Assembly (NCBI RefSeq): GCF_029893805.1 | Contig: NZ_JARXYP010000002.1 | Coordinates: 3,100,001 to 3,164,000 of the forward strand | Direction: 5' to 3' | Origin: Streptomyces sp. SAI-135 | GTDB lineage: Bacteria; Actinomycetota; Actinomycetes; Streptomycetales; Streptomycetaceae | Length of the DNA: 64,000 nt | Shown: piece by piece, positions 25,127 through 49,727 of the stretch | Position numbering within the stretch: the first letter of the stretch is position 1 | Layout of the letters: each line of letters starts with the position of its first letter | Position numbers and translations under genes: made by a program | Notes under the pieces: generated by a model | What the model saw: the letters and a program-made list of their open reading frames with translations, nothing else | The model's database searches: none | Told to the model about the DNA's origin: nothing

Positions 25127-26041
25127 TCAGCCACCGAACCGGCCCAGCCAGTCCGAGTGCTGCGGCGACACCAGCCGCTCCGCCTCCGCCACCGCGAGGG
25201 CCCACCGGTCCTCGGTCACGGTCGTGCTCATCTCGACCCGCAGGGTCTCCAGGTCCTGCTCGACGAGCGAGTGCGCGTAGGTCAGCGGCCGGTGCCTGCG
25301 CACCTCCTGCCAGGCCACGCCGGCCGCCGCGGACGCGCTGAGCACTCCGGTCAGGTCCCAGCCGCCGAGCATCCCGGCCGCCCTGAGCACGGCGGCGAGC
25401 AGCGCCAGCAGGGTCAGTACGGCGGTCACCGACGACCACTGCACGGAGGCGCGGTGGGCCTGCGCGGCGCGCCGCCGGTACCAGGCGTGCTGCTCCAGTA
25501 ATCGCTCCCGCAGATAGACGTCCCGCCGCACCGGGAAGGGCTTCGCCCGCACCTGCCGCATCACCGCGGTGATCTGACCCTCGCCGCGGGTGTGGGTGCC
25601 GTTCCTGGAGTCCTCCCAGCCCACCTTGCGCATCTCCCTGAGCCGTTCCTCGACGCGCTCGGCGAACAGCGCGTCGGCGTTGGCGACTTGGGAGTGGAAG
25701 ATGCCCCCGTGCACCATGTACTGCCACGCCAGGGACTTCAGCATCTCGGCGACGGCCCGATGGGCCTGCCAGCGTGCGCGGGCCCTGCGGCGCGTGGTGC
25801 GCAGACCGATGCCGATGGTCAGGGCGTACAGCAGCGCGGCCAGGACCGCCGGGACATGACTGTCCAGGCGTTCGGCCAGCATGGCGGAGGTCGTGGCGGC
25901 CAGCAGGACGACCAACTGGGCCCGGACGGCACGGAACGATTCACTCTGATGGGTGATCGCCAGTTGATCGTTAACACGGAAGAGCGGAGGGAGGTCGTCG
26001 TCGTTCCAAGTGACTCCCGGCCCCGGAATACCGACCCTCAT
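25127..26041 (-). CDS. SLATT-domain (DUF4231-like) membrane protein
   Basis: A 304-residue protein with two hydrophobic helical pairs: residues about 40-80 (QLVVLLAATTSAMLAE, VPAVLAALLYALTIGIGL) and about 203-248 (VTAVLTLLALLAAVLR, GVLSASAAAGVAWQ). A long charged helical region lies between (AVAEMLKSLAWQYMVHGG, VEERLREMRKVGWED, VRRDVYLRERLLEQHAWYRR). This is the layout of SLATT proteins, two-TM modules predicted to form pores in response to nucleotide signals in bacterial conflict systems. The partner would be the convergent SLOG gene. The upstream face borders the fxsA precursor gene, 204 bp away and divergent. Confidence 0.8.
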   Translation of the reverse strand: MRVGIPGPGVTWNDDDLPPLFRVNDQLAITHQSESFRAVRAQLVVLLAATTSAMLAERLDSHVPAVLAALLYALTIGIGLRTTRRRARARWQAHRAVAEMLKSLAWQYMVHGGIFHSQVANADALFAERVEERLREMRKVGWEDSRNGTHTRGEGQITAVMRQVRAKPFPVRRDVYLRERLLEQHAWYRRRAAQAHRASVQWSSVTAVLTLLALLAAVLRAAGMLGGWDLTGVLSASAAAGVAWQEVRRHRPLTYAHSLVEQDLETLRVEMSTTVTEDRWALAVAEAERLVSPQHSDWLGRFGG

Positions 26042-26245: not shown

Positions 26246-26410
26246 ATGAAGGCTCAGACGGTCACGGAACGCGCGACGGCCGCCGGTTCCGCCCCCCAGG
26301 GGCAGCACACCCCGCTGGGTGCGATCGACTCCACTGCCACGACGAAGGCCGCTGACCGGGTCACGGGTGGTCCGGGACGGCGTCCCACGACCTTCGACTC
26401 GGCGCTGTAG
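26246..26410 (+). CDS. fxsA: FxsA: FxSxx-COOH RiPP precursor peptide
   Basis: A 54-residue peptide, MKAQTVTERA to the C-terminus TTFDSAL. The final five residues FDSAL fit the FxSxx-COOH signature exactly. The PLGAIDST segment (about 23-30) is a plausible leader recognition region. It is preceded by GGAAGGAGA 11 nt upstream and followed by the cognate radical SAM gene. By analogy with three-residue cyclophane-forming rSAM systems, a crosslink from Phe50 to a nearby residue such as Ser52 is expected (inference). There is no obvious protease or exporter gene, so the peptide may act inside the cell. Confidence 0.9.
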   Translation: MKAQTVTERATAAGSAPQGQHTPLGAIDSTATTKAADRVTGGPGRRPTTFDSAL

Positions 26411-26564: not shown

Positions 26565-28754
26565 GTGACCGTTTCCTCGGGGGACCACCCACTCCAGCAA
26601 CTCGTCCTGAAGATCCACAGTCGCTGTGATCTGGCGTGCGACCACTGCTATGTGTACGAGCACGCGGACAAGAGCTGGAAGACCCGCCCGGTCGTGATCG
26701 GCCAGGACACGGTCCGCCGGACCGCGGCCCGGTTCGCCACGTACGCGCGCGAGCACGACCTGGCCTCCGTCACCGTCATCCTGCACGGTGGGGAGCCCCT
26801 GCTGGCCGGTCCCGCCCGACTGCGCGCCATCTGCGCCGAGTTCAGCTCCGCGCTGGCCGGGATCGCCGAGCTGGAGCTGAAGATCCACACCAACGGCGTG
26901 CAGCTGAGCCGCCGTCACCTGGACGTCTTCCGGGAGTACGGCGTCCTCGTGAGCGTCTCGCTCGACGGCGACCAGGCCGCCAACGACCGGCACCGCCTCG
27001 ACCGCAGGTACCGGAGCAGCTATCACCGCGTCCTGCGCGCGATCGACCTGCTGCGCACCGAGGAGTACCGGCACCTGTTCGGCGGACTGCTCTGCACGGT
27101 GGACGTGGCGAACGACCCCGTCGCCGTGCACGACAGCCTGTCGGCCCTCGAACCGCCCCGGATCGACTACCTGCTGCCCCACTCCACCTGGGACACCCCG
27201 CCGCCGCGCGGCTCCTCCGGTTCGGCGACGCCGTACGCCGACTGGCTGCTCGCCGTGTTCGACCGCTGGACGGAACAGGGCCGCAAGGTGCGGGTGCGGA
27301 CCTTCGACTCGGTGCTCAGCACCCTGCGGGGCGGCCCCAGCCTGACCGAGGCGATGGGGCTGGCCCCCTCCGACCTGGCGGTCGTGGAGACGGACGGCTC
27401 CTTCGAGCAGGTGGACTCGCTCAAGACGGCCTACGACGGTGCACCCGCCACGGGATACCACGTCGACGAGCACACCTTCGAGCAGGTGGCCCGGCATCCC
27501 GGCGTCCAGGCGCGGCAGCGCGGCCTGCTCGGGCTCTCGGAGACCTGTCGGGCGTGCCCGGTGGTCGAGTCCTGCGGTGGCGGCCTCTACGCCCACCGCT
27601 ACAGCAGCGAACGCGAGTTCGACAACCCCTCGGTGTTCTGCGCCGATCTGCGCGCCCTCGTCGACGGGATCGCCGAACGGATCACCGACCGCGCCCTCTC
27701 ACCGGCGGTCCTCGACCCGGAAGCCCTGCGGTTCGCCCGCCAGGAGCTGGACCGGGCGCTCCTCGCCTACGCCAACAAGCGGCTGGCCGGGCACCCCGAC
27801 TGGGACGCGACCTGGCCGGCCCTGCTCCGGCTGGACGCGGACCGGAGCACCGCGGAGCACCTCAACCGGGTGCTGTCCCACCCCTACCTGCGGGCCGCCC
27901 TGCGTCATGCCGAGGCGGCCCACATCACCTCCGCCCGCTTCGCCCGGGTCGCCGTGGCGGCGGCCGTCCACGCGCACGCCCCGCTGCGGCTGGCCTGGGA
28001 GCAACCGGACCGGGAGCTGCACCTGCCGACCCTCGGCACCCTGACCCTGCCCGCGCCGGGGCGGGTGGAGGCGGTCGTGAGCGCGCGGGGTCTCGACGTC
28101 CGCACCGCCGACGGGACGTGCCTGTCCGCGGGCGACCAACCCAGCGCCACCTGGCGGCCGTTGACAGTGCTGAAGGTGGCGGCAGCCGAGCCGCTTCTCA
28201 TCGACGACGCGGACCCCCGCCGTGCCGTCTATCCGGCCCCCGTCACCGACCCGCTGGACCCTGCCGGGCTCAGCGCGTTCCGCGAGCGGCTGCGGACCGC
28301 CTACGAGCTGCGGGCGGAGCAGGGGGCGGGGACGGACGACGACCGCAACGCCCTGCGGGTCGACGCCGTCACCCCGCTCGTCGCCGGGGCCGGGGTGCGG
28401 CTCGCCGGCGACGGCCTGGGCGGGCTGGGCGTGGCCGTCGACTTCGAACCCGCCGCCTTCGTCAGGGAGTTGCCCCGTCTGGGGCGCCGGGCCCGGCTGG
28501 CCGCCCTGCGCGCGACGACCGATCTGCATGTGCCGGGCAACCAGGCCGGCCGGCTGCTCACGGAGGCCGTCGAGGGACTGGGCGACGTGGCGTACTGGGG
28601 CCGTGAGACTCCGCAGGGCCTCCAGGCCCTGGCCCGGGCCGGCCACGCCCTGACCTCACTGTCCGAACTCCCCGGCCGCGACCTCACCGAGAGCGGCGAG
28701 GTACTGGCCGGGGAGCTGCGTGCGGAGTGGGCGACGATCGCGGAGCGGCCGTGA
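26565..28754 (+). CDS. fxsB: FxsB: radical SAM/SPASM cyclophane-forming maturase
   Basis: A 729-residue enzyme. The radical SAM cluster motif is CDLACDHCY (Cys21, Cys25, Cys28), with the SAM-binding ILHGGEPLLAG. SPASM-type cysteines occur at about 328, 331, 337 and 359 (CRACPVVESCGGGLY, then FCADL), binding an auxiliary Fe-S cluster. The C-terminal 350 residues are the degenerate metallohydrolase-like extension typical of FxsB (AEHLNRVLSHPYLRAALRHA). It would install a C-C crosslink on FxsA. The GTG at 26565 has no strong ribosome-binding site, which may keep it low. Its stop overlaps the GTG of the acetyltransferase gene. Confidence 0.92.
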   Translation: MTVSSGDHPLQQLVLKIHSRCDLACDHCYVYEHADKSWKTRPVVIGQDTVRRTAARFATYAREHDLASVTVILHGGEPLLAGPARLRAICAEFSSALAGIAELELKIHTNGVQLSRRHLDVFREYGVLVSVSLDGDQAANDRHRLDRRYRSSYHRVLRAIDLLRTEEYRHLFGGLLCTVDVANDPVAVHDSLSALEPPRIDYLLPHSTWDTPPPRGSSGSATPYADWLLAVFDRWTEQGRKVRVRTFDSVLSTLRGGPSLTEAMGLAPSDLAVVETDGSFEQVDSLKTAYDGAPATGYHVDEHTFEQVARHPGVQARQRGLLGLSETCRACPVVESCGGGLYAHRYSSEREFDNPSVFCADLRALVDGIAERITDRALSPAVLDPEALRFARQELDRALLAYANKRLAGHPDWDATWPALLRLDADRSTAEHLNRVLSHPYLRAALRHAEAAHITSARFARVAVAAAVHAHAPLRLAWEQPDRELHLPTLGTLTLPAPGRVEAVVSARGLDVRTADGTCLSAGDQPSATWRPLTVLKVAAAEPLLIDDADPRRAVYPAPVTDPLDPAGLSAFRERLRTAYELRAEQGAGTDDDRNALRVDAVTPLVAGAGVRLAGDGLGGLGVAVDFEPAAFVRELPRLGRRARLAALRATTDLHVPGNQAGRLLTEAVEGLGDVAYWGRETPQGLQALARAGHALTSLSELPGRDLTESGEVLAGELRAEWATIAERP

Positions 28755-30277
28755 CGAAGCCGGCGGCCACGACCACCTCGACCGACCCGCCGCGCCACCG
28801 ACTCCCCGACGGCCACCCCGGGCCCCCGACCTGGTCAGACACCGACCACCCGGCCACCGGCCGCGCCGACGCCCCTCCCTCGGCACCGGACACCTGCCGC
28901 CCCGACGCGCGCCCCTCCGCACTGCCCCCAGGCCGCCCAGACACCCAGCTGTCCGGCCCACACCCCAGGCGCCTCGGCTCCCTCCCGACCGCCCGGCCGA
29001 GCGGCCAGCAACTGACCGCCGAACAGCCCGAGTTACCCCTGCGCCCCGACAACCGCCCCTCCCCACCACCCACCAGGCACCCCGACACCCGGCCATCCGG
29101 CCCACACCCCGGGCGCCGCGACCCCTTCCCGCCCGACCCGCCGGGCGGCGAGCAACTGACCGCCGAACCGGCCGAGTTACCCCTGCGCCCCGACACCCGC
29201 CCCTCGGCACCGCACACCGGCCACCCCGACACACGCCCCTCCCCACCACCCACCATGCACCCCGACACCCGGCCACCTGACCCACACCCCGGGCGCCGCG
29301 GCCCCTTCCCGCCCGACCCGCCGGGCGGCGAGCAACTTACCGCCGAACCGGCCGAGTTACCCCTGCGCCCCGACACCCGCCCCTCGGCACCGCACACCGG
29401 CCACCCCGACACACGCCCCTCCCCACCACCCACCATGCACCCCGACACCCGGCCATCCGGCCCACACCCCGGGCGCCGCGACCCCTTCCCGCCCGACCCC
29501 CCGGGCGACGAGCAACTGGGCGCTCTCCTGGCCGGGTTACCCCTGCGCCCCGAAGCCCCCCTCATGGTCCACGCCTCCCTGAGCGGCACCCGCCTCTCCC
29601 CCACCCAGGTCCGCGACGCGCTGCTCGACGCGCTCGGTCCCCGTGGCACGCTCGTCGTGCCCGCCTTCACGCCCGAGAACTCGGACAGCTCCCGCGCCCA
29701 CCGGGCCCTCGTCGCGCACCTGAGCGCCGAGGAGGCCGAGGAGTTCCGTGCGTCGATGCTCCCCTTCGAGCCGGACGCCACTCCCTGCCCCTCGATGGGC
29801 GCGCTGGCCGAATGTGTGCGGAGCACTCCGGGAGCCGTGCGCAGCGCCCACCCGCAGACCTCGCTGGCCGCGATCGGCCCCCGGGCGGGCGAGTTGCTCG
29901 CCGGGCACGACCCGCAATGCCACCTCGGCGAGCGCTCGCCCCTCGCCAAGCTGTACGACGCCGATGCCCAAGTGCTGTTGCTCCGGGTGGGGTTCGAGGT
30001 GTGCAGCGCCTTCCACCTCGCCGAGTACCGCATGACCCCGCGACCACCCCTGCGGGAGTACCGCTGCGTGCTGGGCGACAAGGGGAACTGGGTCACCTAC
30101 CAGGACCTGACCTTGGACGACGGTGACTTCGCGGAGGCCGGCGCACGGCTTCCGGATGAACTCCTCGTGCGGCGGGAATGGTCCGGAAGACCGGTCACGC
30201 TGTTCGGAATGCGGGCCGCCGTCGACGACGTACGCGATCAACTGTCCAGATCTCGTCTCCGGAATGACGTGAAATAA
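28751..30277 (+). CDS. AAC(3)-family N-acetyltransferase with an expanded N-terminal tandem repeat
   Basis: A 508-residue protein. Residues about 265-505 are an antibiotic N-acetyltransferase (AAC(3)) domain: LMVHASLSGTRLSPTQVRDA, GTLVVPAFTPENSD, SAHPQTSLAAIG, HLGERSPLAKLYDADAQVLL and SAFHLAEYRMTPRPP. Normal AAC(3) proteins have about 30 residues before the LMVHASL segment. Here there are about 250, made of a Pro-rich 60-residue repeat. Each copy ends ELPLRP like the native LPLRPEAPLMVHAS. Four in-frame TTA codons (29033, 29177, 29357, 29537) occur in the repeats. In FxsABC loci this enzyme may acetylate the peptide or a partner rather than an antibiotic (inference). Start coupled to fxsB by GTGA; ATG 29435 is an alternative. 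Confidence 0.85.
   Translation: MTKPAATTTSTDPPRHRLPDGHPGPPTWSDTDHPATGRADAPPSAPDTCRPDARPSALPPGRPDTQLSGPHPRRLGSLPTARPSGQQLTAEQPELPLRPDNRPSPPPTRHPDTRPSGPHPGRRDPFPPDPPGGEQLTAEPAELPLRPDTRPSAPHTGHPDTRPSPPPTMHPDTRPPDPHPGRRGPFPPDPPGGEQLTAEPAELPLRPDTRPSAPHTGHPDTRPSPPPTMHPDTRPSGPHPGRRDPFPPDPPGDEQLGALLAGLPLRPEAPLMVHASLSGTRLSPTQVRDALLDALGPRGTLVVPAFTPENSDSSRAHRALVAHLSAEEAEEFRASMLPFEPDATPCPSMGALAECVRSTPGAVRSAHPQTSLAAIGPRAGELLAGHDPQCHLGERSPLAKLYDADAQVLLLRVGFEVCSAFHLAEYRMTPRPPLREYRCVLGDKGNWVTYQDLTLDDGDFAEAGARLPDELLVRREWSGRPVTLFGMRAAVDDVRDQLSRSRLRNDVK
29017..29553. repeat. 180-bp tandem repeats inside the acetyltransferase gene
   Basis: Units at 29161-29340 and 29341-29520 are nearly identical over exactly 180 bp (60 codons). 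A shortened 144-bp copy lies at 29017-29160, and the start of a diverged copy at 29521-29553 leads into the enzyme domain. All preserve the reading frame. Near-identity implies recent duplication, so copy number may vary between strains. Confidence 0.9.
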
Positions 30278-30363
30278 GCGATCCGCCGGGCCTCCTGGTC
30301 AGGCACATTGTTCTTCCGGTTCCAGGTGGCTCCGGCTACGGGGTCATCGACGCGCAGGGGGGC

Positions 30364-31695
30364 GTGTTGGACACACCTGACGGGGAGTGGGGGCAGGCCT
30401 CGGCCGAGGGGCAGCCCTATTTCTTCCTCAGCTACGCCCACACCCCGCCGTGGGGATCGGGCGGCGGCGACCCCGACCACTGGGTGCACCAGCTCTACCG
30501 GGACCTGTGCAACCACATCATGGCGCTGACCGACCTGCCCGCCGGTGCCGAAGTCGGCTTCATTGACCGGGAGATGGGCTCCGGCGACGGCTGGCCGCGC
30601 AAGCTCAGCGAGAACCTCGCCCGCTGCCGCGTCTTCGTACCGCTGCTGTCACCGCGCTACTTCACCAGCGAGATGTGCGGCCGGGAACTGTACGCGTTCA
30701 ACGAACGCCTCCTGCACGCCAAGGCTGCCGGCGGACGCGAGGTGTCCGCCATCGTCCCGGCCCTGTGGACGCGCGTCGACTTCCAGCAACTGCCGGACTC
30801 CATACGCCACATCCACCTGGACCGCACGACCTTCGGCGACCGTTACGCCACCAACGGCTTCTACGGGCTCATCAAACTCAGCCGACTGCGCGACGAGTAC
30901 GAGGAGACCGTCCTCACCCTCGCCCAGCGCATCGTCCAGGTGGCCGAGGAGTCACCGCTGCCGCCCGGCCGGCTGCGCGACTACGAGTCCACGCCGAGCG
31001 CGTTCCGGCCGCGCGGCGAGGAACCCCGGCACATCCATCTGACGGTGGCCGCGCCCACCCTCGACAGCGTGCCCGAGGACCGGGACCCGCGCCCGTACGG
31101 CGAGGACCCGCTGGACTGGAACCCGTACCACTCCGAGTCGACGCGCCCGCTGCCCGCGCTGGCGGAGGAACTGATCCGCTCGCTGGACTACCGGCCCACG
31201 GTCTCCTCCTTCGACGACGAGGACACCGAGGGCCCGCACTCCGCCGGCGCCGACGAGGAGGGCGGCAAGACGGGCCGCCCGCGCATCCTGCTCGTGGACC
31301 GGTGGACGCTGACGGACGAGGAACGGCGGCGCAGGCTGAAGGCGTTCGACGCGCAGGCCCAGCCGTGGGTGAGCGCGGTCGTCCCCTGGAACCGCGCCGA
31401 CCTCCAGTGCCACGGCGACGAGGGCCAGCGCCTGACCATGGAGTTCGAGCGCACCCTGCCCCTGCTGCTGGAACGCGGCAGGCGCACCGACTGCCGTACC
31501 GCGGTCAACGGCGTCCCCACGCTCAAGGCGTTCACCGACGTGCTGCCCGCCGTCGTGGCGCACACCACCCGGCAGTACCTGAAACACGCGGAGGCCCATC
31601 CGCCGCCGGGTCCGCACGTGCCCAGGCCCCGTCTGCTGGGCCCCATCCAGCCGCCGTACCCGGAAGGCGGACCCGACCACGGAGGAGAAGCATGA
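30364..31695 (+). CDS. fxsC: FxsC: TIR-like protein
   Basis: A 443-residue protein. The N-terminal 200 residues are a TIR-like domain: PYFFLSYAHTPPW (box 1), VGFIDREMGSGDGW, CRVFVPLLSPRYFTSEMCGR and ELYAF, where Glu108 sits at the position of the catalytic Glu of NADase TIRs. The C-terminal half (PRILLVDRWTLTDEERRRRL, QPWVSAVVPWNRADLQC) is the FxsC-specific domain found only in these loci. The GTG at 30364 follows GGGGGG closely. Its stop overlaps the ATG of the NB-ARC gene. TIR domains often signal through or destroy NAD, which would place the FxsABC system among immunity-type systems (inference). Confidence 0.88.
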   Translation: MLDTPDGEWGQASAEGQPYFFLSYAHTPPWGSGGGDPDHWVHQLYRDLCNHIMALTDLPAGAEVGFIDREMGSGDGWPRKLSENLARCRVFVPLLSPRYFTSEMCGRELYAFNERLLHAKAAGGREVSAIVPALWTRVDFQQLPDSIRHIHLDRTTFGDRYATNGFYGLIKLSRLRDEYEETVLTLAQRIVQVAEESPLPPGRLRDYESTPSAFRPRGEEPRHIHLTVAAPTLDSVPEDRDPRPYGEDPLDWNPYHSESTRPLPALAEELIRSLDYRPTVSSFDDEDTEGPHSAGADEEGGKTGRPRILLVDRWTLTDEERRRRLKAFDAQAQPWVSAVVPWNRADLQCHGDEGQRLTMEFERTLPLLLERGRRTDCRTAVNGVPTLKAFTDVLPAVVAHTTRQYLKHAEAHPPPGPHVPRPRLLGPIQPPYPEGGPDHGGEA

Positions 31696-34600
31696 CGGGC
31701 CCGCGCGACGGACGTGTCATCACTTTCTACAGCTACAAGGGCGGTACGGGCCGCACCATGGCACTGGCCAACACCGCCTGGATCCTGGCCGCCAACGGCA
31801 AACGGGTCCTGGCCGTCGACTGGGACCTGGAGGCGCCGGGCCTGCACCGCTTCTTCCACCCGTTCCTCGACCCCAAGGCGCTGTCCGCGACCCCGGGCGT
31901 CATCAACATCATCCAGGACTACGCCTGGGCCGCGACCACCGGAACCCAGCGCCCCGACGACTGGCACCTGTCCTACGCCCAGGTCGAGCAGCACGCGGTG
32001 TCCATCCGCCCCGAACGCTTCGACCTGCACTTCCCCGAGGGCGGCTCGCTTGACTTCCTGTCCGCGGGCCGCCAGGACCGGGCCTACTCGGCGGCGGTCA
32101 CCTCGTTCGAGTGGGACAACTTCTACGAACGCCTGGGCGGCGGCACCTTCCTCAGGGCCCTGCGGGCCAGCATGAAGGCGACGTACGACTACGTCCTGAT
32201 CGACAGCCGCACCGGCCTGTCGGACAACGCGGACATCTGCACCATGGAGATGCCCGACGTCCTGGTGGACTGCTTCACCCTGAGCGACCAGGCGCTGGAG
32301 GGCGCCGCGGTCGTCGCCCGCAGTGTGGAGGAGGGCTACCGGCCGCGCCGGATACGGGTCCTGCCGGTGCCGATGCGCATCGACGAGGGCGAGAAGGAGA
32401 AGGTCGACGCGGGCCGCGCGCTGGCCCGGATGCGGTTCGAGGGGCTGCCCAAGGGGGCGGACGGCCGGCCGCTGAGCCAGGAGGAGCTCAGCGCCTACTG
32501 GGGCAACGTCGAGATCCCGTACCGGCCCTACTACGCCTACGAGGAGACTCTCGCCACCGTCGGCGACGAGAGCGGCATCGCCAACTCGCTGCTGTCCGCC
32601 TTCGAGCGGCTCACCGCCGTCATCTCCGACCGCGAGGTCACCTCGCTGCCGCAGATCCCCGAGCCGGTCCGGCTGCGCTGCCGGGACGCCTACCTCAGGC
32701 GCCGGCCGCTGACCAGCGTGGCCGACGTCGTCGTCGCGTACGCGGCGGAGAAGCGGATGTGGGCCGACTGGGTCGAGTACCTGCTCAAGCGGGCGGGCTG
32801 CGAGGTCACGCTGCACGAGATCTCCACCGGTCCGGTCGAGCCGGCCGAGACCACCGCCCACACCGTGGTCCTGCTGTCGAAGACCTTCCAGGAGTCCCGG
32901 TACGCCGACTCCGTCTGGCGTGCCCTCGGCGAGCGGACCCCGGACGGCGCCCGCGGCTCGGTGGTGCCGCTGCGGGTCGAGGAGGTCCCGCTCCCGGAAC
33001 CGTGCACCGACCTGCACCGGCTCGACGAGGCGGAGTGCGTGGCCGCGCTCCAGCGGGCACTGGAACTCCCCTTGCAGCAGGCGGAGAACAGCCCGTCGGC
33101 GCCCCGCTTCCCCGGCATCACCCCCGGCATCTGGAACGCGCCCCAGCGCAACACGACCTTCACCGGCCGGGCCCCGATCATGGACCGCATCCGCACCCAG
33201 CTCGGCGAGCTGTCCGGGCCGCCGCAGCCGCAGGCACTGTTCGGCCTGGGCGGCGTGGGCAAGACGCAGCTCGCCATCGAGTACGTGCACCGGTTCATGG
33301 CCGACTACGACCTGGTCTGGTGGATGTCCGCCGAGCACATCGACGACGTGGTGGCCTCGCTCGCCGAACTAGCCCCGCTGATAGGCGCGACGGGCACCGA
33401 GGAGGACATGACGAAGGCCAGCCAGGAGGCCGTGCAGCGGCTGTCCAGGGGGTTACCGACCAAGCGCTGGATCCTGGTCTTCGACAACGCGGGCGACCCC
33501 GCGGAGCTGGCCCGCTACTTCCCCACCGGGGACGGCGGCCACATCCTCGTCACCTCCCGCAACCAGGCCTGGTCCCAGCACGGGGCGTCCCAGCAGATCG
33601 ACGTGTTCGAACGCCAGGAGAGCATCGAGCACCTGACCCGGCGCCGCGAGGGCGGCCTGTCGGCCGAGGACGCCGACCGGGTGGCGGAGGCCGTCGGCGA
33701 CCTGCCGCTGGCCGTCGAACAGGCGGCGGCCTGGCTGGCCGAGACCGCCACCCCGATCGAGGACTATCTGCGCCAGCTGGCCCGGCAGACCACCGAGGTC
33801 CTGGACCTCAACCAGCCGCCCGACTACCCGCGTACGGTCGCGGCGACCTGGAACGTCTCGATCGAGCAGCTGGAGAAACGCTCACCGGCGGCGGTACGGC
33901 TGCTCCAGCTGTGCGCCTTCCTCGCGCCCGAGCCGATCTCCCAGCAACTGCTGTACAGCAAGGAGATGATCGCGGCACTCAAGCCGTACGACCCCTCGCT
34001 CCAGGAGAGTCTGCTGCTCGGCCGGATCATCCGCGAGATCGGCCGGTTCGCGCTCGCCAAGGTCGACCAGAAGACCAACAGCCTCCAGGTGCACCGGCTG
34101 GTGCAGGCGGTGATCCGCTCCCAGATGCCCGAGGAGAAGCAGCAGGAGGCGCGGCACGTCGTGCACACCGTCCTGGCGGGCACCCGGCCCGACGGCGACG
34201 AGCCCATAGACGATCCGAGCACCTGGCCCCGCTTCGCCGTCATCTGGCCCCACCTGGCCGCCTCCGACGCCCGCAACTGCCGTGAGGCCGACACCCGCCG
34301 ACTGCTCATCGACCGCGTCCGCTACCAGTGGAAGCGCGGTGACTTCCTGGCCGCGCGGCGCCTCGCGGAGGACCTGCTCCAGCACTGGAAGCCGGTGCTG
34401 GGGGAGGACGACGTGTACTACCTCTACCTGCGCTTCCACCTGGCCAACGTGCTGCGTTCCCAGGGGCGTTACGTGGAGGCCCGGGAGATCGGCGAGGACC
34501 TGCTGGAGCGCCAGCGCCGGGAACTGGGCGAGCAGCATCCGCACACCTACGCCACCATGTCCGGGCTCTCCAGCGACCTGGCGGCGCTCGGCGAGTACAC

Positions 34601-35612
34601 GAAGGCGGTCGAGCTGGCCAAGGAGGCGCACACCGGCTTCAGCGAGATCTTCCACGAGTCGCACCGGCGCACCCTGAGCGCGGCCAACAACCTCGCCCTG
34701 GCCCTGCGGATGGTGGGCAACTACGGCGAGGCCCGCGGCATCGACCAGGACACGCTCGACCGCCGCATGGCCGTCCTCGGCCCCGACCACCCGTACACGC
34801 TGGCCTCGGCCGAACGCCTCGGCCGGGACCTGCGGGAGGTAGGGCGGTACGCGGAGTCGGTGTCGATCCTCTCCCGCACCTACGCGGCTCACAAACGGAT
34901 CCTGACCAGGGAGTTCCCCGGCACCCTGCGCTGCGCCAAGTCCCTGGCGGTGTCGCTGCGCCGCAACGGCCAGCTGGAGGACGCCCGCCGGCTGACCGAG
35001 GCGACCCGCAAGCAGTACAAGGACCAGTACTCGGCCCCCACGCCGGACTCGCTGGCCTGCGACCTGAACCTGGCGGCCGACCTGTTCGCGGCCGACGAAC
35101 GGGACCGGGCCCGCGAGGTGGCCAGGGAGGTGCTCGCCGAGTACATGAAGGTGCCGGGCGAGGCGCACCCGTACACCCAGGCCGCCCTGAACAACCTGGG
35201 GATCTTCCACTGGGGCTGCCGGGACCTGGACGAGGCGGAGGCGGTGTTCCTGAAGGTGCTGCCCCGTATGGCGGAGGTGCTGGGCGAGCACCATCCGCAC
35301 GCGGTGTTCTGCAGCGTGAACTACGCCAACGTCCTCTACGACCAGGGCCGTTACGAGGAGGCACGGGAACGCGACGAGGCGGCGCTGCCGGTCCTGCGCG
35401 AGGCCCTCGGCGGCCACCACCCCGAAACGCTCGCCGTCGTCACCAACCTGGGGCTCACCCTGCGGGCCCTGGGCCGGGACGGCGAGGCCCGCGCCCTGCG
35501 GGAGGAGGCGATGGCGGAACTGCGCCTGCTCCTCGGCGAGGACAACGGCATCACCCTGCTGGCCGGCCGCGAACGGCGGATCTACCGGGACCTGGAGCCC
35601 CTCTCCGTGTGA
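31692..35612 (+). CDS. FxSxx-COOH system STAND protein: KGGVGR ATPase - TIR-like - NB-ARC - TPR
   Basis: A 1306-residue multidomain protein. Residues 1-330: SIMIBI-type P-loop ATPase with the variant FYSYKGGTGRTMALAN (Lys16-Arg21), VDWDLEAPG and LIDSRTGLSDNAD. About 335-465: TIR-like fold (VVVAYAAEKRMWADWVEYL, VVLLSKTFQESRYADSVWRA) that appears to lack the catalytic Glu. About 490-800: NB-ARC STAND NTPase with LFGLGGVGKTQLAIEY (Lys524), WILVFDNAGDP, HILVTSR and LPLAVEQAAAWL. From about 870: TPR repeats (NNLALALRMVGNYGEAR and similar). One in-frame TTA codon (33453-33455). STAND proteins oligomerise on ligand sensing by the TPRs; here the ligand might be the FxsA peptide (inference). Confidence 0.9.
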   Translation: MTGPRDGRVITFYSYKGGTGRTMALANTAWILAANGKRVLAVDWDLEAPGLHRFFHPFLDPKALSATPGVINIIQDYAWAATTGTQRPDDWHLSYAQVEQHAVSIRPERFDLHFPEGGSLDFLSAGRQDRAYSAAVTSFEWDNFYERLGGGTFLRALRASMKATYDYVLIDSRTGLSDNADICTMEMPDVLVDCFTLSDQALEGAAVVARSVEEGYRPRRIRVLPVPMRIDEGEKEKVDAGRALARMRFEGLPKGADGRPLSQEELSAYWGNVEIPYRPYYAYEETLATVGDESGIANSLLSAFERLTAVISDREVTSLPQIPEPVRLRCRDAYLRRRPLTSVADVVVAYAAEKRMWADWVEYLLKRAGCEVTLHEISTGPVEPAETTAHTVVLLSKTFQESRYADSVWRALGERTPDGARGSVVPLRVEEVPLPEPCTDLHRLDEAECVAALQRALELPLQQAENSPSAPRFPGITPGIWNAPQRNTTFTGRAPIMDRIRTQLGELSGPPQPQALFGLGGVGKTQLAIEYVHRFMADYDLVWWMSAEHIDDVVASLAELAPLIGATGTEEDMTKASQEAVQRLSRGLPTKRWILVFDNAGDPAELARYFPTGDGGHILVTSRNQAWSQHGASQQIDVFERQESIEHLTRRREGGLSAEDADRVAEAVGDLPLAVEQAAAWLAETATPIEDYLRQLARQTTEVLDLNQPPDYPRTVAATWNVSIEQLEKRSPAAVRLLQLCAFLAPEPISQQLLYSKEMIAALKPYDPSLQESLLLGRIIREIGRFALAKVDQKTNSLQVHRLVQAVIRSQMPEEKQQEARHVVHTVLAGTRPDGDEPIDDPSTWPRFAVIWPHLAASDARNCREADTRRLLIDRVRYQWKRGDFLAARRLAEDLLQHWKPVLGEDDVYYLYLRFHLANVLRSQGRYVEAREIGEDLLERQRRELGEQHPHTYATMSGLSSDLAALGEYTKAVELAKEAHTGFSEIFHESHRRTLSAANNLALALRMVGNYGEARGIDQDTLDRRMAVLGPDHPYTLASAERLGRDLREVGRYAESVSILSRTYAAHKRILTREFPGTLRCAKSLAVSLRRNGQLEDARRLTEATRKQYKDQYSAPTPDSLACDLNLAADLFAADERDRAREVAREVLAEYMKVPGEAHPYTQAALNNLGIFHWGCRDLDEAEAVFLKVLPRMAEVLGEHHPHAVFCSVNYANVLYDQGRYEEARERDEAALPVLREALGGHHPETLAVVTNLGLTLRALGRDGEARALREEAMAELRLLLGEDNGITLLAGRERRIYRDLEPLSV

Positions 35613-39214: not shown

Positions 39215-39874
39215 ATGCGCACAGGCACAGCCCCGGACGCGCCCGCACCCCGGGGCGCACGGCAGTTCGGCGGCTCACGACGGCTCGGTGACGCGCGGTG
39301 GCTCGGCGGCTTGCGGTGGCTCGGCGACTCACGACGGCTCGGCGGGTCGCGGTGGCTCGGCGGCTTGCGACGGCTTGGCGGGTCGCGGTGGCTCGCGGCC
39401 GTGCGGCCGCTTCTGCGCCCCCTCCTGCGCCCCCGCCGGCGCCCCGGCCCCACCCCCACCCCCGCCTGCCCGTCGCGGGCTCACCAGTTGCGGGCGCTCG
39501 TCGCGGTGCTGGACGAGGCGGTGGCCGCGCAGAGGCCGGCCGACGAGGCGGTGGCCGCGTGCGGCGAACCCGGCCCGCCGGCCCGCGGGGCGGCCCGGGA
39601 CTGCGGGCTCCAGAGCATCACCCTGCACCGGCTGCGCGCCCGGCTCCAGGACCTGTGGACCACGGACCCGGACCTGGTGGCGGCACAGGCACGCGCGGCC
39701 CGGCTGCTCGCCTACGACCTGTGGATGCTGCGCGCCTCGATGAACCTGGCCTGCACCACCCACCCCGTCGACCGCACCGAGGCGGCCCGGCTGCGCCTCA
39801 ACGGCCTGGGCCGCCCCGCGGACGACCTGCGCCGACTGCGCGACACCCTGCGCGCGGAGCTCTCCGGGGCGTAG
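39215..39874 (+). CDS. Hypothetical protein with a hexapeptide-repeat N-terminus
   Basis: A 219-residue protein beginning MRTGTAPDAPAPRGARQFGG. Residues about 20-60 are seven consecutive imperfect hexapeptides of the form (G/D)(S/A/L)R(R/W)L(G/A), for example GSRRLG, GLRWLG and GSRWLG. A Pro/Arg-rich linker follows, then a roughly 120-residue helical domain (HQLRALVAVLDEAVAAQRPA, AARLLAYDLWMLRASMNLAC). I do not recognise the family. The start is well supported by AGGAGG 5 nt upstream. The Arg/Trp/Leu repeats could form a membrane- or nucleic-acid-binding surface (inference). Confidence 0.6.
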   Translation: MRTGTAPDAPAPRGARQFGGSRRLGDARWLGGLRWLGDSRRLGGSRWLGGLRRLGGSRWLAAVRPLLRPLLRPRRRPGPTPTPACPSRAHQLRALVAVLDEAVAAQRPADEAVAACGEPGPPARGAARDCGLQSITLHRLRARLQDLWTTDPDLVAAQARAARLLAYDLWMLRASMNLACTTHPVDRTEAARLRLNGLGRPADDLRRLRDTLRAELSGA

Positions 39875-49565: not shown

Positions 49566-49575
49566 CCTCTTCCTG

Positions 49576-49648
49576 CTCTCCCGACTGGACTCGAACCAGT
49601 AACCTGCCGGTTAACAGCCGGCTGCTCTGCCAATTGAGCTACGGAAGA
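49576..49648 (-). tRNA. tRNA-Asn (GUU), copy 1
   Basis: A 73-nt cloverleaf with acceptor TCTTCCG/CGGGAGA (one G-U pair), D-arm GCTCAATTGGCAGAGC, anticodon loop CTGTTAA and T-arm ACTGGTTCGAGTCCAGT. CCA is not encoded. Only acceptor-stem bases differ from copy 2. Confidence 0.96.
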
Positions 49649-49654
49649 TCGAAG

Positions 49655-49727
49655 CTCCCCCGACTGGACTCGAACCAGTAACCTGCCGGTTAACAGCCGG
49701 CTGCTCTGCCAATTGAGCTACGGAGGA
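49655..49727 (-). tRNA. tRNA-Asn (GUU), copy 2
   Basis: A 73-nt cloverleaf with acceptor TCCTCCG/CGGGGGA. The body is identical to copy 1, from which it is separated by 6 bp. The two are probably co-transcribed from the right, ending at the terminator 49542-49565. Confidence 0.96.

Follow-up and report, generated by a model that had tools for sequence, protein, structure and literature searches.

TTA codons at the front of the acetyltransferase gene in Streptomyces Fxs operons and their possible role in bldA-dependent expression

The window analysed here is a stretch of 64,000 nt from Streptomyces sp. SAI-135 (contig NZ_JARXYP010000002.1, positions 3,100,001 to 3,164,000). It contains an Fxs operon, in which a gene for an acetyltransferase directly follows the gene of the peptide maturase FxsB and carries four in-frame TTA codons. 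The corresponding UUA codon is read by the bldA tRNA, and an earlier note on this DNA proposed that these codons, together with one in the STAND gene downstream, place the operon under bldA control. We found that TTA codons recur at the front of the acetyltransferase gene in Fxs operons of the genus Streptomyces, which is in line with a part of this proposal.

The Fxs operon and the start of its acetyltransferase gene

The genes and features of the locus are listed in Table 1. With an FxsB-type maturase, a precursor ending in FxSxx, FxsC and a tetratricopeptide repeat (TPR) protein, the operon is an FxSxx-COOH cyclophane system, which belongs to the ribosomally synthesized and post-translationally modified peptides. 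FxsB scores 583 bits against TIGR04269 (cut-off 370) and 304 bits against NF040587 (cut-off 225); the latter match corresponds to its C-terminal part, an inactivated beta-hydroxylase extension which has lost the HExxH motif. The window and the majority of relatives have an open reading frame (ORF) ending in FxSxx upstream of FxsB, and the gene order of the operon is the same in relatives. The precursor FxsA itself reaches 15.6 bits against TIGR04268, which is under the cut-off of 28. Kaur et al. (2020, PMC7159879) described stand-alone FxSxx systems with an ATPase as conflict systems and proposed that their peptide acts as a toxin or signal. These systems share with the window operon the FxSxx peptide, the radical SAM/SPASM enzyme and a STAND ATPase that combines TIR and TPR domains with an inactive MinD/ParA-like one; in the accessible sections of that account the acetyltransferase and TTA codons find no mention.

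Table 1. Features of the Fxs locus (positions in the window)
Feature	Position	Strand	Remarks
FxsA precursor peptide, C-terminus FDSAL (FxSxx-COOH)	26246..26410	+	ORF ending in FxSxx upstream of FxsB
FxsB, cyclophane-forming radical SAM/SPASM maturase with inactive HExxH extension	26565..28754	+	
GGAG, likely ribosome-binding site of the acetyltransferase gene	28742..28745	+	5 nt before GTG 28751
AAC(3)-fold acetyltransferase gene (PF02522), four in-frame TTA	28751..30277	+	GTG start overlaps FxsB stop
Tandem repeat array, 36-, 144- and 180-bp periods	28850..29553	+	Tandem Repeats Finder (TRF); encodes an N-terminal extension rich in Pro, about 230 residues long
In-frame TTA, repeat copy	29033..29035	+	
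In-frame TTA, repeat copy	29177..29179	+	+144
In-frame TTA, repeat copy	29357..29359	+	+180
In-frame TTA opening the enzyme domain	29537..29539	+	homologous codon is TTA in G189 (L077) and G292 (L252)
Conserved non-coding element between acetyltransferase and FxsC	30259..30312	+	CCGGAATGACGTGAAA ... GGCACATTGTT
FxsC, TIR-like protein	30364..31695	+	NF040588 226 bits (cut-off 130), TIGR04276 169 bits (cut-off 55)
FxsT, ParA/MinD-like + TIR + NB-ARC (STAND) + TPR protein	31692..35612	+	NF040586 1011 bits (cut-off 300)
In-frame TTA, codon 588 of FxsT	33453..33455	+	sole in-frame TTA of FxsT

Residues 272-497 of the acetyltransferase match PF02522 with 215.8 bits. We rejected its identification as an aminoglycoside 3-N-acetyltransferase: the score against NF033082 (the AAC_3 equivalog) is 102.5 bits at a cut-off of 270, and it is the fold family alone that is matched. 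The nearest solved chain is that of FrbF (PDB 3sma; 137.9 bits, E 4.8e-39), and the true aminoglycoside acetyltransferases match the enzyme domain less well than FrbF (90.6 bits or lower).

We place the start of the gene at GTG 28751, because it forms a GTGA overlap with the stop of FxsB, has the GGAG motif upstream, and because relatives show the same overlap, using a start at the equivalent place relative to the FxsB stop. The frame read from this GTG contains exactly four TTA codons, at 29033, 29177, 29357 and 29537. Their positions had been given correctly in the earlier note, and all lie downstream of the real start; a further TTA at 29337 is out of frame. Between 29537 and the conserved VHASL strand, the sole in-frame ATG, GTG or TTG is ATG 29564, which cuts into the domain. 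TTA 29537 is part of the conserved beginning of the domain and should thus be translated from any sensible start.

Tandem array and origin of the four TTA codons

The Pro-rich extension encoded by the array is absent in the other Fxs acetyltransferases examined, and elsewhere in the host genome the array sequence has no more than a single match, of 50 bp and 77%. The enzyme domain opens with ...LAELPLRP..PLMVHASL, and TTA 29537 encodes the Leu of AEL-P. Upstream of it lie three copies of the domain-start segment, spaced by 144 and 180 bp, each of which holds one of the other three TTA codons. Comparison of two repeat copies revealed 3 silent and 8 amino-acid-changing codon differences, and thus constraint at the protein level was not seen. 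At the homologous codon, four close loci have TTG and one has CTG, so that TTA is present in three of the eight closest loci when the window is included.

As two array-free relatives, G189 and G292, hold TTA at the homologous codon, parsimony suggests that one TTA existed first and was copied later, i.e. that the four codons are a single ancestral codon multiplied and not four independent events. TTA 29537, with which the enzyme domain begins, would be the ancestral codon, and the segment bearing it would have been copied by slippage or by unequal recombination in a linker prone to expansion, giving four UUA codons in the message. That the copies arose by tandem duplication, as the earlier note had assumed, is borne out by the 144/180-bp array. 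Its view that four TTA codons are exceptional as regulation did not hold, since a single codon was copied; the additional copies are probably a by-product. Low-complexity expansions unrelated to the array (GPP-R-TD, GALPGPT, SASGTGTA and a long PTA-rich one) are found at the same N-terminal place in L119, L126, L131 and L243, and the N-terminal linker of Fxs acetyltransferases appears to be a preferred site for repeats to expand.

TTA codons in Fxs operons of the genus

The host genome is of the Streptomyces type (10.37 Mb in two contigs) and contains the bldA tRNA-Leu(UAA) gene (L070, anticodon taa), which was found when 12 tRNA stretches out of 67 tRNA matches were scanned. A 400-kb sample of this genome contains 329 called genes, of which three have a TTA (3 of 10993 Leu codons); in 400 kb adjoining Fxs operons of 20 other genomes this holds for 9 of 277 genes (9 of 11359 Leu codons). 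Two TTA codons in one gene were met in neither sample. The rarity of TTA and the presence of its tRNA, on which the earlier note had relied, are therefore confirmed for this host. According to a published survey, a Streptomyces genome has 51-505 TTA-bearing ORFs (mean 177), 92% of them with one TTA, and the conservation of most TTA codons is low (PMC10327506).

For comparison with relatives, 246 Streptomyces genomes were searched with the domain, of which 156 had a match; the 80 best-scoring of the matches listed (the window's own excluded) were taken and completed with two named loci and the window to 83 loci; L073 was dropped because it is on the same contig as L076. FxsB lies directly upstream in 53 of the 83 loci, and the other 30 served as control set. 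Fifty Fxs-linked genes were counted, leaving out L152, which has neither the anchor motif nor a TTA, as well as L089 and L155, to which no start could be given. The part of the gene before the VHASL anchor is called the front, the remainder the body.

In these 50 genes TTA accounts for 18 of 274 Leu codons in the front versus 1 of 1181 in the body (Fisher 9e-13; this and the other p-values treat genes as independent and are inflated in significance by near-copies among the rows). Without the window the numbers are 14 of 254 and 1 of 1151 (4e-10). Other codons do not follow this pattern: CTA and CTT together were counted 10 times in the front and 68 times in the body, third positions are A or T in 13.5% of front and 14.7% of body codons, and TTG is no commoner in the front (16 of 274) than in the body (89 of 1181). 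A relaxed, A/T-rich gene start was thus rejected as the cause of the front TTA codons, because CTA and CTT go the other way and A/T third positions are not raised. Foreign codon usage across the whole gene was rejected as well, as the body holds a single TTA despite its 68 CTA and CTT codons.

At the level of genes, a front TTA is found in 15 of the 50 Fxs acetyltransferase genes versus 1 of 125 background genes coupled to an upstream stop (p 1.6e-8), the latter having TTA at 1 of 479 Leu codons. In the first 35 codons of background genes TTA makes up 3 of 1056 Leu codons in the flanks of the 20 genomes and 1 of 1218 in the host genome. The control set of related enzymes outside Fxs operons shows no front TTA (0 of 30 genes, 0 of 162 Leu codons) and 3 TTA among 664 body Leu codons, which excludes a general trait of this acetyltransferase fold. 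The front TTA codons occupy seven distances from the anchor motif, and on a tree built from the enzyme domain without the front part 12 TTA changes are counted, at least six of them forced by the starred branches. Taken together, TTA appears to have been kept or regained in the orthologues beyond chance.

A held-out set comprised 31 matches in genomes outside the first set, obtained with a query from another clade; 22 of them have FxsB. Here TTA was found at 3 of 91 front versus 1 of 440 body Leu codons (p 0.017); L206, L210 and L225 lack the anchor (and TTA), and the front part of L227 contains unread bases. Among four further Fxs loci of the genus one, L252, has a front TTA, resulting in 19 of 77 Streptomyces Fxs acetyltransferases overall. 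The three Fxs acetyltransferases from outside the genus among the returned loci have no TTA, a sample too small for deciding whether the bias is limited to organisms with bldA.

Among the other operon genes of the window, FxsA, FxsB and FxsC have no in-frame TTA. The TTA at 33453 is indeed in frame in FxsT, as the earlier note had it, but it is without conservation support, because none of the six closest orthologues (96-98% identical) shares it; a conserved FxsT TTA was therefore rejected. Across Fxs operons TTA was found at 11 of 3598 Leu codons in FxsB, 7 of 1361 in FxsC and 10 of 5513 in FxsT; these rates exceed the flank rate of 0.079%, in part through shared positions. Positions shared within clades are codon about 630 of FxsB (L075, L078, L079), profile position 134 of FxsC (five loci) and position 157 of FxsT (four loci). 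At least one TTA is present among the four large genes in 26 of 36 complete operons, while about 22% would be expected at the flank rate.

The coupling of the downstream genes to the acetyltransferase gene, which had been proposed previously, is not supported. A gap of 86 nt, in which a conserved element lies, separates the acetyltransferase stop from the start of FxsC, and FxsC is preceded by a separate G-rich ribosome-binding region; translational coupling exists instead upstream, between the acetyltransferase gene and FxsB. The element is retained in relatives with acetyltransferases about 65-70% identical and is lost in L088. It is possibly a promoter or regulator site of FxsC-FxsT. A scan of the gap for a sigma-70-like promoter or a terminator found none. 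FxsC may be independent, as its start lies beyond this element, and any bldA dependence of FxsC and FxsT would have to arise from transcriptional polarity or, in the case of FxsT, from the TTA within the gene itself.

Upstream of FxsA, on the opposite strand, the window contains a gene for a SLATT-domain protein (NF033610, NF033634; 25127-26041) with an in-frame TTA at codon 139 from the called start 25915 (about 25499-25501). SLATT proteins are associated with conflict systems. Elsewhere in the window two tRNA-Asn(GTT) genes stand in tandem (49575-49727; 79-bp repeat, 97% identical), and an 18/36/54-bp tandem repeat is located at 39267-39399.

Possible gating of the operon by the bldA tRNA

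We suggest that the Streptomyces Fxs operon is gated by the bldA tRNA, mostly via TTA in the first tens of acetyltransferase codons, and assign to this reading of the sequences a probability of roughly 0.6. The window operon would then probably be held back until late development. Ribosomes finishing FxsB would re-initiate at GTG 28751 and encounter the four UUA codons, at which they would stall when charged tRNA-Leu(UAA) is scarce. Without the tRNA, FxsA and FxsB would still be made, the acetyltransferase would be missing, and FxsT would be missing through its own UUA. Stalling may also lower the downstream message, because a bldA mutant of S. coelicolor lacked the protein of a TTA gene and had less message of this gene and of the neighbour coupled to it (PMC2000904). 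Of the control proposed in the earlier note, the in-frame codons and the tRNA gene stand and are joined by the recurrent enrichment in relatives; the downstream coupling and the weight given to four codons do not.

Several observations weigh against this gating. In addition to the inflated p-values mentioned above, TTA positions in Streptomyces are generally skewed to gene starts (PMC4255298; PMC2635970), and if the front is defined very generously, so that untranslated DNA is included, the enrichment falls to about 7-fold (19 of 2755 Leu codons in the background versus 17 of 345 in Fxs genes without the window, p 5e-8). The held-out set repeats the bias more weakly, its gene rate (3 of 22) being half that of the first set, and 58 of the 77 Fxs acetyltransferases of the genus have no front TTA. 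The sister locus G201, 93% identical, has TTG at the homologous codon; either TTA was lost there or the history may be more tangled. In L145 and L146, which are outside Fxs operons, TTA lies just behind the anchor. The front-TTA label is unclustered on the tree (144 of 500 shuffles were as low), which we interpret as rapid gain and loss, but which also fits noise. Finally, a simple gene caller picked ATG 29564, after the last TTA, as the start of the window gene, a choice that was overruled by homology.

The last point leads to the alternative that the Pro-rich repeat is untranslated and the gene, beginning at ATG 29564, is independent of bldA. We regard this as hardly credible. The codon usage across the repeat region is atypical, which would explain the choice of the gene caller; relatives, however, begin at the FxsB stop, about 20 conserved residues before VHASL would be removed, and by eye no ribosome-binding site was seen at 29564, in contrast to the GGAG in front of GTG 28751. 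More serious, though still rather unlikely in our opinion, is the possibility that the front is a fast-evolving, weakly constrained linker, in which chance TTA codons, often arising from TTG, are tolerated at low cost. The gene would then be bldA-sensitive without selected regulation. In line with this, length and sequence of the front vary widely, several relatives have low-complexity expansions, the repeat copies differ chiefly by amino-acid changes, the homologous codon is TTG in half of the eight close loci, and most TTA codons in the genus are poorly conserved anyway. However, neither the other A/T-ending codons, including CTA and CTT, nor TTG are raised in the front, and front TTA is lacking altogether in the related enzymes outside Fxs operons.

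Alternatively, the number of UUA codons could itself be adaptive, with the copy number setting the requirement for bldA tRNA and repeat slippage tuning it. All four copies retain TTA while differing elsewhere, and the 144- and 180-bp periods preserve the frame. Nevertheless, we consider such tuning very unlikely. In known bldA targets one UUA is usually sufficient, the array is confined to the window genome among the relatives examined, and its copies are young, so that there was little time for TTA loss. It is tempting to combine these thoughts into an immune-like system (modified peptide, TIR, STAND) that is developmentally gated by the recurrent front UUA, the array acting as a four-UUA gate of variable length which sets the bldA tRNA threshold, but this would be a long shot. 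We favour gating by the front UUA as such.

A modified-peptide system with a shifting TTA is already known and serves, together with the general skew of TTA to gene starts, as a precedent for the proposed gating. Most Streptomyces have a TTA in the SapB (amf/ram) cluster, in ramR or ramC depending on the species (PMC4255298). Like SapB, the Fxs system is a modified-peptide cluster whose TTA shifts between genes, but SapB belongs to the lanthipeptides and has a dedicated regulator, whereas the Fxs TTA is commonest at the front of the acetyltransferase gene in a cyclophane operon with TIR and STAND proteins. The gene adpA and other genes with conserved TTA resemble the window gene in having an in-frame TTA read by the bldA tRNA; the TTA of adpA is fixed (one TTA retained in 14 of 14 genomes surveyed, PMC4255298), whereas that of the Fxs acetyltransferase moves, comes and goes, and is multiplied in the window. 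New is thus a second modified-peptide system with a shifting TTA, concentrated at the front of one gene. A paper on TTA codons in Fxs operons was not found in searches confined to the open-licence PMC literature, and one may exist outside it.

Fxs systems occur widely in Streptomyces. If they are gated by bldA, they join the developmental programme, which would indicate when the peptide should be searched for and which mutant should be used for comparison. Moreover, a gate that shifts from one Leu codon to another and between the genes of an operon, but is anchored at the front of one gene, would offer a clean test of selection on a regulatory UUA.

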